This document shows, piece by piece, positions 24,024 through 29,484 of a stretch of DNA of 64,000 nucleotides. The stretch covers positions 496,001 to 560,000 of the forward strand of contig BPIE01000001.1 of assembly GCA_026003935.1 (NCBI GenBank), written 5' to 3'. The stretch is from Tepidiforma sp. (GTDB lineage: Bacteria > Chloroflexota > Dehalococcoidia > Tepidiformales > Tepidiformaceae). The translations under genes and the position numbers were made by a program. A model generated the notes under the pieces. The model did no database searches. It had not been told where the DNA came from and saw only the letters and a list, made by a program, of their open reading frames with translations. Numbering within the stretch: the first letter of the stretch is position 1; every line of letters begins with the position of its first letter.

Positions 24024-24099
24024 GCTGAGGTAGCTCAGTTGGTAGAGCACGGCACTGAAAATGCCGGTGTCCTCGGTTCGATCCCGAGCCTCAGCACCA
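24024..24099 (+). tRNA. tRNA-Phe (GAA)
   Basis: A complete cloverleaf: acceptor stem GCTGAGG/CCTCAGC, D arm GCTC..GAGC, anticodon stem CGGCA/TGCCG around loop CTGAAAA (anticodon GAA), T arm CTCGG/CCGAG around TTCGATC. The 3' CCA is encoded (24097-24099). Confidence 0.98.
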
Positions 24100-24113
24100 G
24101 GCATGTTGCGAGC

Positions 24114-24150
24114 GCGGGCCCGGCCGGTTGGCCGGGCCCGCGGTGTTTTT
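24114..24150 (+). terminator. Rho-independent terminator of tRNA-Phe
   Basis: A perfect 12-bp GC stem (24114-24125 with 24130-24141), GGTT loop and a GGTGTTTTT tail ending at 24150. The T-run is only on the plus strand, so it serves the tRNA and not the convergent metK-like operon. Confidence 0.9.
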
Positions 24151-24160
24151 GGGGATGCGC

Positions 24161-25300
24161 TCAGGCGGGTTGGAACGTCTCCCAGGGGCGTCCGGGGAGA
24201 AAGTGGCCGTACCGGGCCACATCGACGAGGTCGGCGGCGCCGGTCCAGCGGTCGCCGGCCCCTGCAAGCGAGAGGTCGATGAACGGCTCCCAGCGGGCCG
24301 GGTCGAGCGGCTCCCCGCCGGCGCCGCGGAGCGACACGACCCGGAAGCGCTCGTCGCCGGGGAAAACGGCGAGCGTGGCCGTGCATTCCGGGGCGGCGCC
24401 GGTGCGAACGACGAGCCGGGCGAGGCGCCGGGCGATGATCGCACCTGCGCGGTCGGGCTTGTAGAGGTCCTTGCCGGAAAGGGCGCCGCCCCCGATAGGG
24501 ACGCGGGGGCCGTAGGCATCGATGACGAGTTTCTTGCCGCTCAGCCCGTTGTCGCCGTCGGGGCCTCCGAAGACGAAGTTCCCGGCACCGTTCACCTCGA
24601 TGTCGGGTAGGTCCGGCTCGAGGCCGGGGATGGCTTCGGCGGCCTCGGAGAGGACCGCTTCGAGCGCGCCGCGGACCGAGCGGCGGAGTTCGACCGGGTC
24701 GCCGGCGGGCGCCTGCTGGAGCGAGGTGCTGAACGAGCGGAGGCGGGAGGCCGGGCCCTGACGCTCGAGCACGATAATCACCTTCCCATCGGGGCCAAGG
24801 AGGAGGTCGGGCCGTTCACTCCGGAGCCGTTCGAGGGCGCGGGCGAGACGTCCGGCGAGCCAGTGCTCGGCAGGAAGGTCGTTGGTCCCGGGGGAGTCGA
24901 CGGCGTAGCCGGTCACGATGGACTGGTCGTCAGAGAAGGCGCGGCCTTCCTCCTCGCCGTCGAGCAGGGGCCCGAGGCAGAGGTCGGTGGCGACGGTGAG
25001 GGTCTCAGGGAGCGGGGTCCACCGGTCGCCCGCGGGGAGGGCGGGGTCGACCGGGCTGCCGAAGCCGGCGGAGGCGTAGACCTGCCGGGCGATGCCGTCG
25101 ATGTCGATGTCGGTAGCACCCGAGCAGGCGATGCGGCCGGTGATGAAGACGCTGCGCCGGTGGACGGCGACCTCGAGGCCGACGAGCGCGCGCCGCTCCC
25201 GCCGGCCGGCTTCGGCGACGAGGGCATCGGCAACGGCGTCTGCGAGCTTATCGGGATGACCGGGGAGAACGAATTCCGCGGGAAAGAGCTGGGACCTCAT
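24161..25300 (-). CDS. metK: S-adenosylmethionine synthetase (MetK), divergent
   Basis: A 379-residue methionine adenosyltransferase making SAM from ATP and methionine. The key motifs are intact although overall divergent: GHPDKLADAVADALV (residues 14-28), DDQSIVTGYA (124-133), FVFGGPDGDNGLSGKKL (242-258) and GGGALSGKDLYKPDRAG (270-286), ending with YGHF and PWE as in classical MetK. AAGGAG lies seven bases upstream of ATG 25300. It is the last gene of the five-gene operon that begins with the dual SAM-riboswitch leader at about 29340. A second, canonical metK elsewhere cannot be excluded. Confidence 0.9.
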   Translation of the reverse strand: MRSQLFPAEFVLPGHPDKLADAVADALVAEAGRRERRALVGLEVAVHRRSVFITGRIACSGATDIDIDGIARQVYASAGFGSPVDPALPAGDRWTPLPETLTVATDLCLGPLLDGEEEGRAFSDDQSIVTGYAVDSPGTNDLPAEHWLAGRLARALERLRSERPDLLLGPDGKVIIVLERQGPASRLRSFSTSLQQAPAGDPVELRRSVRGALEAVLSEAAEAIPGLEPDLPDIEVNGAGNFVFGGPDGDNGLSGKKLVIDAYGPRVPIGGGALSGKDLYKPDRAGAIIARRLARLVVRTGAAPECTATLAVFPGDERFRVVSLRGAGGEPLDPARWEPFIDLSLAGAGDRWTGAADLVDVARYGHFLPGRPWETFQPA

Positions 25301-25332
25301 TGGGGAACTCCTTCGGATGGTTCGACTGGGCG

Positions 25333-26754
25333 TTAGGAGGAGAAAGGAGGCGCAGCTGCCAGGATGGCCGGGCGGCCCGGCGGTGCGGTGGGATTGAGCA
25401 GAACCAAGCAATTGGCGAACGGTTCCAGGTCACCGGAGAATCCGTCCCGAGTCAGGGCAACGCCGACGTGGGCGCGCAGAAGCGTCTGCCCAAGCTCCTT
25501 GCCCGGGTCACCGACGAATCCGTCGGTGATGATGACCGCGCGGCGGACCGCGTTGTCCCGCATGTGCGCGGCAACGCAGCGGATGTCGGTGCCCCCGGTC
25601 GTGATGCAGTCACCCCGGCGGAGCTGGGCGAGGGTGACGTCGGCCACCTGCGTCGAGAAGAGATGCACGCGAGGGTGGACGAACTCGCTGCAGTCGAGCA
25701 CTGCCGCGTAGAGGGCAGGGATGATGCGGGAGACGGAGCCACTGACGTCGAGGTACACGTGGACCCGCTCGCCGACCGGGAGGACCGACGGCAGGGTGAG
25801 CGGTGCTCGATAGAGGAGCGGCCGATGGCCGAGGGCACGGAGCACGACGGCGCGGCGGTCGAACGCCGGGATGGCGCTGTCGACGCTGCGCGGGTCGGCG
25901 ACGAGCCTGCGGATGGGCGAGGCGGCGGAGCTGGTCTGTCCTGCGATGCGCAGCAGGAGGCTGCGCAGGACAGCCCGGTTCCCGGGGGTCGGGCGGGGTT
26001 TCACGACCAGTTCGGCCATCGTACCGATGCTGGAGCGGCCCTTGGGGCCCTGCGGGTCGAGAGCTGGCCAGTACTTGGCGGCGCGCCGAACGGCATCGGT
26101 GAGCGACCGCTCGAGTGCCCGGTCGGCGGCGCCCCGGTCGGGCCCTGGCGTATGGGAGCCGAGCAGCGGTGTCCCGGCTGCCGCCGCTTCGGGGACCGCG
26201 CCGCGGAAGACCGAGTAGAGGTCGTCGTAGGTGGCGCCGGCGGGCGAGTAAAGCTGGCGATAGACGGCGGCGACTTCCTCCAGGCCGGGGACTGCGAGTG
26301 CGGGAACCTGCCAGGCTGAGGGGTCCCCGTCGTGGCGCCAGCCGGCCGGGGGCCGGAGCAGGCATTCGGGGAACCGCTCATCGGAGTAGAAGTCCGTCAG
26401 CAAGCTGGTGTAGCCCGGTTCGGGGAACATCCGGCAGAGCGTGGCGTTGATGACCGCGTCGAAGACGAGGTTGTCGAGCGCCGTCGGTTGAGCGCAGCGC
26501 CGGGTATGACCGAGGAGGATGTGGTGGAGCTCGTGCATGACGAGCATGAACAGTCGTTCGGGGGTCGCGGCGTACGCTTCGACGAACTCCGGATTGATGA
26601 GCATCCGGGGACGGATGCGGCATTCGGTGCGGGCGGTCGGCGCCTCGGTGGACGGGACGACTTCGAGGACTTGGAGCAGCGCGCGGACCGCAAGGGTGCC
26701 CGCGGGGAAGGCGTCGAGGATGCGCTCTTCAAGTTCGGCCGGGGTGATGGTCAT
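25333..26754 (-). CDS. DUF2201-type putative metallopeptidase with C-terminal vWA-like domain
   Basis: A 473-residue protein. The N-terminal half has an HExxH zinc-protease-like motif, MHELHHILLGHTRRC (His74, Glu75, His78, further His83). The C-terminal half has a MIDAS-like vWA pattern: YLDVSGSVS (DxSxS), TTGGTDIRC and ITDGFVGDPG. This architecture (DUF2201 N- and C-terminal domains) is the usual partner of MoxR AAA+ ATPases. GGAGG precedes the ATG. It lies just upstream of metK and downstream of the AAA+ gene and a small unknown gene. The substrate of the presumed protease or scaffold is unknown. Confidence 0.88.
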   Translation of the reverse strand: MTITPAELEERILDAFPAGTLAVRALLQVLEVVPSTEAPTARTECRIRPRMLINPEFVEAYAATPERLFMLVMHELHHILLGHTRRCAQPTALDNLVFDAVINATLCRMFPEPGYTSLLTDFYSDERFPECLLRPPAGWRHDGDPSAWQVPALAVPGLEEVAAVYRQLYSPAGATYDDLYSVFRGAVPEAAAAGTPLLGSHTPGPDRGAADRALERSLTDAVRRAAKYWPALDPQGPKGRSSIGTMAELVVKPRPTPGNRAVLRSLLLRIAGQTSSAASPIRRLVADPRSVDSAIPAFDRRAVVLRALGHRPLLYRAPLTLPSVLPVGERVHVYLDVSGSVSRIIPALYAAVLDCSEFVHPRVHLFSTQVADVTLAQLRRGDCITTGGTDIRCVAAHMRDNAVRRAVIITDGFVGDPGKELGQTLLRAHVGVALTRDGFSGDLEPFANCLVLLNPTAPPGRPAILAAAPPFSS

Positions 26755-27239
26755 GCTGACCTCCAGGTGGGCGGGATGAGGAGGACGGCGGTGCGCCGGG
26801 GGACGAGCCGGGAGAAGTTCGGCTCCTTGGCAGCGAGGTAGACGGTGTCTGAGCTCTTCGAGAGGACCGTGACGACGGAGAGCGGGTCGGCTTCCGCGGC
26901 GGTCGCGAGACCGAGGTCGGCGGAGACGACTGCGACGGGCGGGAGTGGCAGTTCGGGGACGCGCCCGGCGACGAGCCGCCGGAGGAGCCGCTCGGCCTCA
27001 CGCCAATCTCCCGGCAGGTCGAGGCCGAGCCAGCGGGCGTATTCGCCGGGCCCCGCCGGGTCGCGCCACGGCGGGAGCTCCGGAGGCATGGAGAACTGGA
27101 TACCAGGGAGGTCGACCCGGGAGCCGCTGAAGGTGATCTGGGTGGGCGGCGGGCCCATGTTCTCGAGCGTTCCCGGGGCGGCCGGCGGCCACCCCCGGAG
27201 ACGGGCCTCAGCGGAGGAACGTGCGAGCCGCGCGGTCAT
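26751..27239 (-). CDS. Hypothetical protein of the MoxR-vWA-MetK operon
   Basis: A 162-residue protein starting at ATG 27239, which overlaps the AAA+ stop (ATGA); its own stop overlaps the start of the vWA gene. There is no transmembrane segment or signal peptide. It has a Pro-rich middle (MPPELPPWRDPAGPG), a helical segment (DWREAERLLRRLVAGRVP) and a C-terminal hydrophobic beta-rich part (PVAVVSADLGL, DTVYLAAKEPNFSRL, AVLLIPPTW). I do not recognise a family. Double overlap with both neighbours argues that it is a real, stoichiometric component. Confidence 0.72.
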   Translation of the reverse strand: MTARLARSSAEARLRGWPPAAPGTLENMGPPPTQITFSGSRVDLPGIQFSMPPELPPWRDPAGPGEYARWLGLDLPGDWREAERLLRRLVAGRVPELPLPPVAVVSADLGLATAAEADPLSVVTVLSKSSDTVYLAAKEPNFSRLVPRRTAVLLIPPTWRSA

Positions 27240-28717
27240 GCGCCTGCCTCCCTGAGCGCGGCCCGGGTCTCGCTCCAGCTGCGGAGCGCTGCGTCGACCT
27301 CGTCCGGGGTCTCGAAGTGGTCCGCGTTGAAGAGCGCGCAGAGGAGGTTGGTGACCAGCGGACGCTCGGCATCGCCGCCGGGCAGCCCCGATAGGAGTGC
27401 CTCGACCCGCTTCCACACCCGGAACCGGCGGTGGCTGACGTACGTGCGGGTGGAGACCGACTGGGGTGTCCAGAGCGCGGCGCTCAGGGCTGCTGTCTCC
27501 TCGGCGACCGAGGCGACGAGGGTGCCGGCCGCGCCTGATTCGATGAGGGCGAGCGCAAGCGCATGCCGGCCGCCCGCCGGGAGCTCCGCGAGGGCGTCGG
27601 CGACGAGGGCGGACCGCTCTTGCCGCGAGAGGTCGCCGGCGTGGACGGCGAGCAGTGCGCGGCGGACCGGGTCCTTCTCGGTGAGCACCCACGAGCGAGG
27701 GTCGTCGCCCGGGACGGCGCCGAGGCGCCAGGCTTCGCGATGTGCCGTGACCACCTTCAGCGGGTCAGGCGTGACGCCCTGGGCGGGAAGCGGGATGGAG
27801 CACTGCAGCGCGAGGAGCGCCGACTCTTCGAGCGTCGCGCCAGGGCTGCCGGTGCGCCGTGCGGCGTGGACTGCCACGACGTTCCGGAGAAGCTGCGCTG
27901 CTCGACGCCCGCTCAGGGGGATGCCGCCCTCGCGGAGCAGTTCGACGGCGAGGCGGACGTATCGCGCGAGCGGCGCCCGGTGCTCTTCGAGGAGGCGCGG
28001 CAAGAGCGTGCGTCCGCGGCTGACGGCCTGGGCCAGCCCGGAAGCGGCGGCCGGGCCGACCGGCGCACCGCTCAGCCGGATGAGCGCCTCGCGTTCGTCC
28101 TCGGTGAGGGCGGACCAGTCCGGCATCTCCACGATGAAGGCGAAGCGGTCGGCGAGGGCGGCGTCGAGCGGGCCGGCGCCGGGGTAGAGCGGCGCATCGA
28201 GAGCGTCGTCGTCTCCGCCGGGCGGGTTCATCGCAGCCCAGCGGTAGACCAGTCCCTCGAGCGGGAGCCCGAGAACCCGCCGCTCGTGGATGATGGGGAA
28301 CATCTTGTTCTGGATGTCGTGGCGGCAGCGGGAGACTTCATCGAAGAAGACCGCCTGGGCCCCCCAAATGGCCGCCGGGGTTCGGATGAACTCGAGCCGG
28401 CCGTCCGGGCCGGGGACCGGGTAGCCGACGAGGTCGTCGAAGTTGAGGAGCGCGGCGTTATAGTGGCGCCACTCGAGCCCGAGCGCGGCAGCGACCCGTT
28501 CCAGCAGGTACGACTTGCCGGTGCCGTGGGGGCCGATGAGGAGCAAGGGGTCGCCGCTGATGAGCGCCCCGAGGAGCACGGGCTCGATGCGATGGACGCC
28601 GACGACGCCGAGCGCCGCGAAAAGGCCGGGCGCCGGCGACCCGGCCGCGGCGGGGGTCGGGGTCTCGCCGGCCGCCGGTGCGGATTTGGACCGGGCAGTT
28701 CGCGGCGGCATCAGCAC
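27236..28717 (-). CDS. MoxR-type AAA+ ATPase
   Basis: A 493-residue ATPase. After a ~30-residue Ala/Pro-rich tail come Walker A IGPHGTGKSYLLE (GPHGTGKS at 62-69), an insert with FDDLVGYP, Walker B AVFFDEVSR and sensor-1-like MNPPGGDDD followed by ALADRFAF, the order found in MoxR/RavA/CobS-like AAA+ proteins. The C-terminal ~200 residues are helical. Such ATPases act with vWA proteins as chaperone-like or metal-insertion machines; the vWA/HExxH protein two genes downstream is the obvious partner. Its start overlaps the upstream 82-residue gene by seven bases. Confidence 0.9.
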   Translation of the reverse strand: MLMPPRTARSKSAPAAGETPTPAAAGSPAPGLFAALGVVGVHRIEPVLLGALISGDPLLLIGPHGTGKSYLLERVAAALGLEWRHYNAALLNFDDLVGYPVPGPDGRLEFIRTPAAIWGAQAVFFDEVSRCRHDIQNKMFPIIHERRVLGLPLEGLVYRWAAMNPPGGDDDALDAPLYPGAGPLDAALADRFAFIVEMPDWSALTEDEREALIRLSGAPVGPAAASGLAQAVSRGRTLLPRLLEEHRAPLARYVRLAVELLREGGIPLSGRRAAQLLRNVVAVHAARRTGSPGATLEESALLALQCSIPLPAQGVTPDPLKVVTAHREAWRLGAVPGDDPRSWVLTEKDPVRRALLAVHAGDLSRQERSALVADALAELPAGGRHALALALIESGAAGTLVASVAEETAALSAALWTPQSVSTRTYVSHRRFRVWKRVEALLSGLPGGDAERPLVTNLLCALFNADHFETPDEVDAALRSWSETRAALREAGA

Positions 28718-28959
28718 GCCCCCCCGGCGGCCTGCAGCTCGATGGCGCGGCCGTCGAAGCGCATGAGGAGGCCGCGAAGGTCCCGCTTCAGGGTCCGGAC
28801 GATGGGCTCGACGTCTTCCAGGAGGAGCGCAAGCGAGGCGCCGGTGTGGAGCAGCAGGTCGACTGTGGTGCCGTGGTGCTCGATGGCCGTGATGCGGCCG
28901 ACGACCGGCGCGCTAAGGATGCGGTGATTGGTGACGGGGAACCGAAGCGAAGCGAACAT
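28711..28959 (-). CDS. Small hypothetical protein, first gene of the riboswitch-controlled operon
   Basis: An 82-residue protein, beginning MFASLRFPVTNHRILSAP and predicted to be beta-rich with one helix; it ends in a short Cys-containing tail. It has no recognised family. Its GGAGG ribosome binding site (28966-28970), six bases from the ATG, is the element that the P1 helix of the downstream aptamer would mask, so it is the direct translational target of the switch. It overlaps the AAA+ start by seven bases. Confidence 0.75.
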   Translation of the reverse strand: MFASLRFPVTNHRILSAPVVGRITAIEHHGTTVDLLLHTGASLALLLEDVEPIVRTLKRDLRGLLMRFDGRAIELQAAGGAC

Positions 28960-28965
28960 GGGTTA

Positions 28966-29057
28966 CCTCCAATCGGTCCTGGCTGTGGCACCTTCCGGGG
29001 CTGCCGGGGTTGCCGGGCGGTCATCGGGCCAGGTCCCTCGCGCCACTCGTGATTGGA
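28966..29057 (-). promoter_or_regulatory. SAM-I (S-box)-type riboswitch aptamer overlapping the ribosome binding site
   Basis: On the transcribed strand the S-box core is plain: GAGGGACCTGGCCCGATGA, then GCCCGGCAACC, then AAGGTGCCA. P1 pairs 29051-29057 with 28968-28974 (TCCAATC with GATTGGA). P2 has the kink-turn-like CCCGATGA, its TGGC can pair with GCCA for the pseudoknot, and P3 is CCCCGG-type. P4 is almost absent. The 3' arm of P1 includes the first three bases of the GGAGG at 28966-28970, so SAM binding should block translation of the first gene. Confidence 0.85.
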
Positions 29058-29157
29058 CTGGACGTTCGCACGCGGCGTTCGCCGCTGCTTGGTTTCGGCG
29101 CCGCACTGCTGGTGATGTGCGGCTGATGGTTCCGAGGCGCCTCCTTTCCGGGGCAGC

Positions 29158-29184
29158 AAAAAGCCCCTCACTGGCGGAGGGGCT
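29158..29184 (-). terminator. Regulated Rho-independent terminator after the first SAM aptamer
   Basis: On the minus strand AGCCCCTC (29184-29177) pairs with GAGGGGCT (29169-29162) followed by a T-run (to 29158). An exclusive antiterminator is possible: GGAGGGGC at 29212-29205 with GCCCCTCC at 29183-29176, eight perfect pairs. GGAGGGGC can also be captured upstream by GCCCCTC at 29226-29220. These three alternative pairings form a classical expression platform. Confidence 0.85.
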
Positions 29185-29223
29185 GGCAGACTCGCGCGCC
29201 GTTCGCCCCTCCATGGACCGAGG

Positions 29224-29335
29224 GGCGGGTTTTGAAAGAACCCGCCGTTGGTTGCCCCGCATACGGGGCCGCGTCGTGCTGGCACCTTGGCGGCGAGACC
29301 AGGTTGCCGGGCAGTCGTGCTGCCTCTCTGGACGC
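29224..29335 (-). promoter_or_regulatory. SAM-IV-like (SAM-I/IV clan) riboswitch aptamer
   Basis: The transcribed strand gives P1 GCGTC (29335-29331) with GACGC (29275-29271); a short P2 GGCAG/CTGCC (29324-29320 with 29314-29310); the invariant CGGCAACC (29309-29302); P3 closed by CCTGG and CCAAGG; and AAGGTGCC (29288-29281). A hairpin GCCCCG/CGGGGC (29269-29264 with 29259-29254) follows P1, and CGGCG at 29247-29243 can pair with CGCCG in the P3 loop (29295-29291). Absence of P4, the extra 3' hairpin and the P3-loop pseudoknot match SAM-IV rather than SAM-I. The downstream hairpin 29246-29224 competes with the pseudoknot. Confidence 0.78.
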
Positions 29336-29345
29336 TTCGACCTGT

Positions 29346-29373
29346 ATCCTAGCCGGCGGCGCCGGCTTGTCAA
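29346..29373 (-). promoter_or_regulatory. Promoter of the SAM-riboswitch operon
   Basis: On the minus strand, consensus TTGACA (29373-29368), a 16-base GC-rich spacer and TAGGAT (29351-29346). Transcription would begin near 29339, just before the P1 helix of the first aptamer. It lies downstream of tRNA-Asn, so the operon has its own promoter. Confidence 0.78.
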
Positions 29374-29409
29374 GAGCAGCCCGGGTAGGTGACGGGCGCT
29401 CTCGAGTGG

Positions 29410-29484
29410 TGGCTCCCCGGCGAGGATTCGAACCTCGAACCTAGCGGTTAACAGCCGCGCGCTCTACCGTTGAGCTACCGGGGA
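29410..29484 (-). tRNA. tRNA-Asn (GTT)
   Basis: A full cloverleaf on the minus strand: acceptor TCCCCGG/CCGGGGA, D arm GCTC..GAGC, anticodon loop CTGTTAA (anticodon GTT) on a GCGGC-type stem, T arm GAGGTTCGAATCCTC, with encoded CCA (29412-29410). A weak TTGCGT (29521-29516) and GAAACT (29498-29493) could be its promoter. Confidence 0.97.

Follow-up and report, generated by a model that had tools for sequence, protein, structure and literature searches.

A probable bi-mechanism tandem SAM riboswitch, SAM-I/IV followed by SAM-I, ahead of a MoxR AAA+/VWA/MetK-like operon in Tepidiforma

Why would a single leader carry two sensors for the same metabolite? In a preliminary description of the DNA analysed here (a stretch of 64 kb from Tepidiforma sp., hereafter the window), one minus-strand leader was read as a promoter, a SAM-IV-like aptamer, a regulated terminator and an S-box with P1 reaching into the Shine-Dalgarno (SD) sequence, so that one signal would be checked twice, at transcription and then at translation. 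All the motifs listed there are present in the sequence at the positions given, and the Rfam covariance scan proposed as a check placed both elements above their gathering cut-offs. At these cut-offs, cmscan of the whole window returned four matches: two tRNAs, one SAM-I/IV and one SAM-I aptamer.

Two SAM-clan aptamers in one leader

The leader lies on the minus strand, flanked by a tRNA gene (29484-29413) and an ORF of 82 residues (28959-28711). A sigma-70-type promoter, TTGACA-N16-TAGGAT (29346..29373, minus strand; TTGACA 29373-29368, TAGGAT 29351-29346), matches the consensus at 10 of 12 positions and was the sole promoter-like site in a consensus scan of 28900-29450 (shuffles mean 0.0). 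By eye, TTGACA-N16-TAnnnT was also read in the corresponding leaders of two relatives, G023 and G024, and none was read in those of G025 and G036.

The first aptamer (29238..29340, minus strand) matched RF01725, SAM-I/IV, with 58.2 bits (cut-off 41.1, E 5.4e-7). Its P1 is formed by 29335-29331 and 29275-29271, and a pseudoknot joins the P3 loop to the 3' tail (29295-29291 with 29247-29243, CGGCG). RF01725 was the best SAM-clan match at this site and SAM-IV (RF00634) was rejected as its class; the earlier reading of a SAM-IV-like element followed by SAM-I thus stands as two SAM-clan aptamers of different family, and the SAM-IV label falls. In the cmscan alignment P2 is a plain stem, which agrees with the SAM-I/IV criterion of a P2 without internal loop given in the available part of PMC2864571. 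We examined covariation in 26 of the 30 SAM-I/IV matches of the family (L013, L025, L027 and L032 were left out), counting the pairs of P1, P3, the P4-like hairpin and the pseudoknot, with P2 excluded. Paired cells amounted to 96.3%, and the score of 0.161, against 0.074 for shuffled alignments, was reached by 0 of 500 shuffles; for pair changes on both sides the count was equalled in 1 of 500 shuffles, and for additional pair types in 18 of 500. Within the pseudoknot (columns 58-62 with 121-125) 90.3% of cells were paired, one pair being UA in 20 and GC in 4 members, and the outermost pair (columns 58/125) was unpaired in 10 of 24. The first element matches a known class of SAM sensor and is a candidate SAM binder.

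The second aptamer (28967..29058, minus strand), described before as an S-box core, matched RF00162, SAM-I, with 58.5 bits (cut-off 44.4, E 5.9e-11). Its P1 (29057-29051/28974-28968) takes in the first bases of the SD sequence GGAGGT (28965..28970), which precedes an ATG at 28959, as had been claimed. In the window genome (1.6 Mb; the assembly is 72.55% complete) RF01725 had one match and RF00162 two; with so few, two aptamers lying 179 nt apart on the same strand are not a chance association.

Of the 38 family genomes, five carry this tandem, namely the window genome (G000) with G023, G024 and G025 of the same genus, and G036 of another genus. SAM-I/IV and SAM-I matches as such (E <= 0.001) occurred in 25 and 35 of the 38, respectively, and two further genomes of the genus, G022 and G026, had one match per aptamer family, far apart. 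SAM-I/IV was matched in 22 of 294 genomes of a class sample, in which, under stricter filters, no further adjacent SAM-I/IV and SAM-I pair was seen among the matches listed. In G036 the aptamers are 532 nt apart, with a 118-residue ORF between them; an 8,001-base stretch of this genome matches QEVS01000008.1 (bacterium isolate UCB2) in every base. In G025 the S-box scored 29 bits, below cut-off, the terminator tail is decayed, and the 82-residue gene appears to be frameshifted; such joint decay is expected if the gene and the switches serve each other. It is unlikely, in our estimate, that one aptamer alone works and the other survives as a relic of a leader once recruited, such as a metK SAM-I/IV unit copied before an existing S-box gene. 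G025 shows that copies can decay, and the first unit is built like the metK-linked SAM-I/IV leaders of the family, yet in G000, G023, G024 and G036 both aptamers score above cut-off despite diverged sequence between them.

Lone SAM-I elements were also seen before another AAA+ gene, at L117:281-450 (G010) and L118:310-460 (G023), followed by GCAACnAACGGCG as in SAM-I/IV tails. By sequence it is possible that these are hybrids with both a P4 and a 3' pseudoknot.

The end of the second aptamer is conserved in detail. GATTGGAGG is present in all five tandem leaders, and the P1 strands CCAATC/GATTGG with the adjoining AGG of GGAGG are kept at all five loci, which places the end of the SAM-I aptamer within the SD sequence. 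No terminator-like site was found 3' of this aptamer on the minus strand in the scan of 28900-29450. We infer that the SAM-I aptamer would repress by occluding the SD sequence. Ligand-free folding paired most of the SD sequence with early codons, and a search for a SAM-free pairing partner that would release it returned none.

One base of the window S-box differs: a C replaces the A directly 5' of the conserved GAG in J1/2. Spermidine-sensing SAM-I variants exist, one of them in a metK leader, and the available text of PMC10853860 describes them as changed in J1/2 and in the P3 internal loop; our comparison used this description. The C could point to a changed ligand of one aptamer (a SAM analogue, SAH or a polyamine), in which case the leader would be a logic gate with two inputs instead of a double check on SAM. 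In the window S-box this one base of J1/2 is altered, but GCAACC and AAGGTGCC of P3 are intact. Moreover, all five S-boxes with the C (those of the window, L119, L120, L122 and L143) have a G in the joining strand at a position where seven of nine other aligned family S-boxes have T; the G is also found alongside A. A pair could presumably be kept between this C and G. We regard a changed ligand as unlikely.

A hairpin platform between the two aptamers

Downstream of the SAM-I/IV aptamer, the minus strand can form a series of mutually overlapping hairpins. H1 (GGCGGGTT/AACCCGCC, 29224..29246, arms 29246-29239/29231-29224) would belong to the SAM-free state, and H2 (CGCCCCTC/GAGGGGCG, 29204..29227, arms 29227-29220/29211-29204), which was read from the sequence and its relatives, to the SAM-bound state. 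A putative antiterminator (29176..29212) pairs GGAGGGGC (29212-29205) with GCCCCTCC (29183-29176). The consensus scan placed an intrinsic terminator, AGCCCCTC/GAGGGGCT followed by TTTTT, at 29158..29184 (hairpin 29184-29162, T run to 29158); it is the sole one on the minus strand among three terminator-like matches in 28900-29450 (shuffles mean 0.5). The 5' arm of H1 shares 4 nt with the pseudoknot strand CGGCG, the 3' arm of H1 overlaps the 5' arm of H2, and GGAGGGGC both contains the 3' arm of H2 and is complementary to GCCCCTCC, the 5' arm of the terminator. G023, G024 and G036 conserve these overlaps. The arms of H1 co-vary among the window and these three relatives, in the forms GGCGGGTT/AACCCGCC, GGCGGGTA/TACCCGCC, GGCGGGTAT/ATACCCGCC and GGCGGGC/GCCCGCC. 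The antiterminator is likewise kept in G023, G024 and G036 and is mismatched in G025. By eye, counterparts of the terminator were seen in all four relatives, the one in G025 being weakened, with mismatched arms.

This build suggests a course of events. Transcription would start just 5' of the SAM-I/IV aptamer. With SAM bound, the 3' pseudoknot would capture CGGCG, which is also needed for the 5' arm of H1, so that H1 could not form; H2 would then form and sequester the antiterminator arm, leaving the terminator (29184-29158) to halt transcription. At low SAM, H1 would form and block H2, GGAGGGGC and GCCCCTCC would pair, and RNA polymerase would read through. The completed leader would then expose the SAM-I aptamer, with its P1 reaching into the SD sequence, and a late rise in SAM would block translation of the 82-residue gene. 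If, as we infer, the genes that follow are co-transcribed, to the benefit of the cell, the AAA+, mid, zincin-VWA and MetK-like proteins would be made only at low SAM.

We used ensemble folding of the G000, G023, G024 and G036 platforms to examine the first switch. In transcripts ending at the terminator loop the antiterminator had a probability of 1.0 in all four. When the four bases shared with the pseudoknot were blocked, it fell to 0.15 in G000 and 0.40 in G024, and stood at 0.98 in G023 and 0.92 in G036; by this model, support for the proposed switch is clear in the window, moderate in G024 and absent in G023 and G036. With the complete terminator sequence, blocking of the pseudoknot strand lowered the probability of the terminator in the four genomes (0.37 to 0.21, 0.66 to 0.05, 0.17 to 0.0 and 0.87 to 0.54), and the modelled equilibrium fold of the full platform thus counts against the proposed switching in every genome calculated.

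That blocking never raised the terminator would suit a platform that works the opposite way, or a T-run hairpin that is a constitutive partial terminator, leaving regulation to translation only. The truncated folds, which resemble co-transcriptional ones, favor the direction proposed here, in the window more strongly than in G024. The metK-linked SAM-I/IV leaders of the family, five of which (L123, L009, L012, L011 and L005) were compared by eye, speak to the same point: L005 has the same three-hairpin platform, and a shorter one, in which H1 directly overlaps the 5' arm of the terminator, is seen in L009 and L012 and, with less clarity, in L011. In the simpler leaders L009 and L012, H1 is thus set directly against the terminator arm, in keeping with the proposed direction and not with regulation by translation alone, which we hold to be quite improbable. 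From its build, the first switch likely works in the direction proposed, toward termination when SAM is bound.

One leader, then, has a first aptamer followed by an intrinsic terminator and a second aptamer lying over the ribosome binding site, which is the arrangement termed bi-mechanism. The earlier idea of two checkpoints agrees with this layout, with a terminator after the first aptamer and the overlap of P1 with the SD sequence at the second, and the arrangement recurs in five of 38 related genomes. We consider it very likely that the leader is a bi-mechanism tandem SAM riboswitch, acting by attenuation and then by a block of translation, with both switches off in the presence of SAM.

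The operon and SAM elements in other phyla

The first gene after the leader (28711..28959, minus strand, as are those that follow) codes for an 82-residue protein that had no Pfam, NCBIfam, PHROGs or PADLOC match at the thresholds used (structure model pLDDT 67.5, from 2 sequences). It is the one window gene with a homologue after the S-box at each of the five tandem loci; the G025 copy appears to carry a frameshift. Then come genes for a MoxR-like AAA+ ATPase (27236..28717; PF07728, 4.9e-11), a conserved protein here called mid (26751..27251, start uncertain; pLDDT 81.7), a protein with a zincin motif (HELHH) and a VWA domain (25333..26754; PF13203, with PF05762 just below cut-off) and a divergent MetK-like, or methionine adenosyltransferase, protein (24161..25300; PF00438, PF02772 and PF02773). 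The mid protein has an NMxxPP motif near its N-terminus and, in the window, no Pfam, NCBIfam or PHROG match. HELHH is invariant in both aligned VWA proteins. The MetK-like protein scored 147.3 bits against TIGR01034, under the cut-off of 309.4; its relatives in the PDB are S-adenosylmethionine synthases, and it keeps the GHPDK and SGKD motifs.

The AAA+, mid, VWA and MetK-like genes follow the tandem leader in G000 and G036, and these were the only two of 38 genomes of the order with the VWA protein at E <= 1e-20. In G023, G024 and G025, none of the AAA+, mid, VWA and divergent MetK proteins had a match in the stretch around the tandem leader. The window operon is flanked by two tRNA genes (24024-29484); the corresponding interval in G023, G024 and G025 holds the tandem leader and the 82-residue homologue without a match to the four larger genes, which were possibly acquired or lost together. 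Additional sequence is present on the leader side of this interval in G023 and G025. The operon of G036 (L119, G036:C4:27900-35900) has a head-maturation-protease-like fragment on one side and a tape-measure-like gene on the other, neighbors that make the region prophage-like.

A profile search with the VWA protein returned 40 loci in genome_contigs and one in IMG/VR. By record title, some of them doubtful, these 41 loci belong to Acidobacteria, Proteobacteria, Planctomycetes, Chloroflexi and Nitrospiraceae, almost all being metagenome-assembled genomes. By tblastn the VWA gene was present at 41 loci, the AAA+ gene at 34, mid at 32 (15 homologues were aligned) and the MetK-like gene at 30, many gaps falling at contig ends. 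We examined 28 of the 41 leaders; the other 13 were dropped (AAA+ match missing, or less than 300 nt upstream). SAM-I or SAM-I/IV was found at Rfam gathering cut-offs upstream in 19 of the 28.

A further type of element became apparent in a scan for a pseudoknot anchored at TTG and [CT]TAAA. Within the 28 leaders (36.4 kb) it returned 23 SAM-II/V-like elements, spread over 16 leaders, whereas control DNA of these loci, 554 kb in all, gave 11. When at least four pseudoknot pairs were required, 20 elements were left, spread over 14 leaders, and the control gave 4; the pattern was derived from these sequences, so only the enrichment over control counts. The matches in L137 at 5504 and L133 at 3 are doubtful. 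In a first, less strict anchored scan, the leaders of 32 loci (36.1 kb) had given 20 matches and 601 kb of control had given 21, and a wide hand-made fold scan was dropped, its matches being mostly chance-like. The elements of L141, L142, L143, L151 and L157 had no Rfam match at E up to 0.5. Rfam did not report elements of this type, and we assume their II and V class names from the consensus motifs of those classes. In an alignment of seven V-like elements the pseudoknot was 97.1% paired, and its score of 0.924, against 0.283 when shuffled, was reached by 0 of 500 shuffles; sliding the alignment gave at most 0.162, and pair changes on both sides were matched by 62 of 500 shuffles. L124, L132, L157 and the second element of L160 were left out of this alignment, three of them having only three pseudoknot pairs.

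Counting SAM and SAM-II/V-like elements together, 23 of the 28 leaders had at least one, 16 at least two and 13 a mixture of types (23, 14 and 11, respectively, under the four-pair limit), counts that are not independent, since L124 hardly differs from L132 in this region and others also resemble each other closely. L130, L131, L146 and L161 have a single element only, an observation that favors the reading in which one aptamer alone works. Apparent triple stacks precede the AAA+ gene in L135, L152 and L156 (SAM-I/IV, V-like, II-like) and in L160 (SAM-I/IV, V-like, second V-like). L126 has two SAM-I/IV aptamers in series (1469-1763); by eye, a T-rich terminator hairpin closes the first, and the hairpin that ends the second includes the SD sequence.

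The five remaining leaders, titled Planctomycetes, carry a candidate SAM-I-like variant (L139:5889-6010, L144:3970-4090, L154:5679-5800, L162:1175-1300 and L164:5662-5780); Rfam, searched at E up to 1, returned no match to the SAM clan for them. The P2 loop of this element pairs over 6-7 nt with the strand after CACGGTGC (J3/4). The pairing takes three covarying forms; L162 and L164 resemble each other. An aligned pair count (MAFFT) gave a score reached by 196 of 500 shuffles and lends the fold no support, because the alignment is out of register; the loop-by-loop pairing does support it.

Taken with the window leader, these leaders point to an operon of MoxR AAA+, mid, zincin-VWA and MetK-like genes that is scattered across phyla. 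We think it fairly probable that the window leader is one edition of a wider pattern, in which this operon, spread horizontally, would be switched on at SAM shortage and would have repeatedly assembled mixed-class stacks of SAM sensors. The combinations would be SAM-I/IV with SAM-I, with V-like, with II-like or with a second SAM-I/IV, SAM-I with II-like, and the Planctomycetes SAM-I variant, the last sensor often lying at or near the ribosome binding site.

Relation to known tandem SAM riboswitches

Tandem SAM-II/SAM-V leaders, named as the known precedent when this locus was first described, appear in the available part of a 2022 census (PMC9481103) as 149 bi-mechanism leaders. As in these, the two SAM aptamers of the window leader differ in structure, with a terminator after the first and the second lying over the ribosome binding site; unlike them, the window leader pairs SAM-I/IV with SAM-I, in another lineage, before another operon and with another transcription platform. 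The same part of the census gives seven SAM-II + SAM-I/IV and two SAM-I/IV + SAM-II pairs, also bi-mechanism, the seven, according to the paper, perhaps being just pseudo-cooperative. These too join SAM-I/IV with another SAM class in one leader, but their partner is SAM-II. Double SAM-I riboswitches (164 in that part of the census; also 'SAM SAM' in the available text of PMC12452182) place SAM sensors in series but repeat one class. The metK-linked SAM-I/IV leaders of the family (L005, L009, L011, L012 and L123) share the first aptamer with the window, and L005 its three-hairpin platform as well, but each has a single aptamer before an ordinary metK, with no second one in the stretch viewed.

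The pair SAM-I/IV + SAM-I is absent from the available listing of PMC9481103, and this, with the literature listings, is consistent with the earlier remark that no SAM-IV plus SAM-I pair had been described; such a pair could hide in the counts of PMC12452182, in the available text of which the SAM classes are lumped. Searches outside subscription journals and preprints found no literature on a SAM riboswitch with MoxR, or on MoxR with VWA and S-adenosylmethionine synthetase, and the operon was not described among the matches listed (titles and abstract starts) for methionine adenosyltransferase, MoxR and riboswitch. The two-checkpoint idea is thus known from SAM-II/SAM-V, and the class pair appears to be new, judged by the available part of PMC9481103. 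The SAM-controlled operon, apparently undescribed, is the more surprising of the two.

Tandem switches that read one ligand at two levels are rare. Every mixed-class SAM case in the available part of PMC9481103 includes SAM-II. The SAM-I/IV + SAM-I pair implies that the tandem design is not bound to one aptamer family. The operon may act as a module for SAM rescue or for the response to SAM depletion, carried in some cases by phages. If it truly recruits different SAM classes in different phyla, it would offer a natural comparative set for asking why cells stack sensors, whether for sharpness, speed or leak; and, if this holds, the operon would encode an uncharacterised protein machine whose expression is closely tied to SAM.
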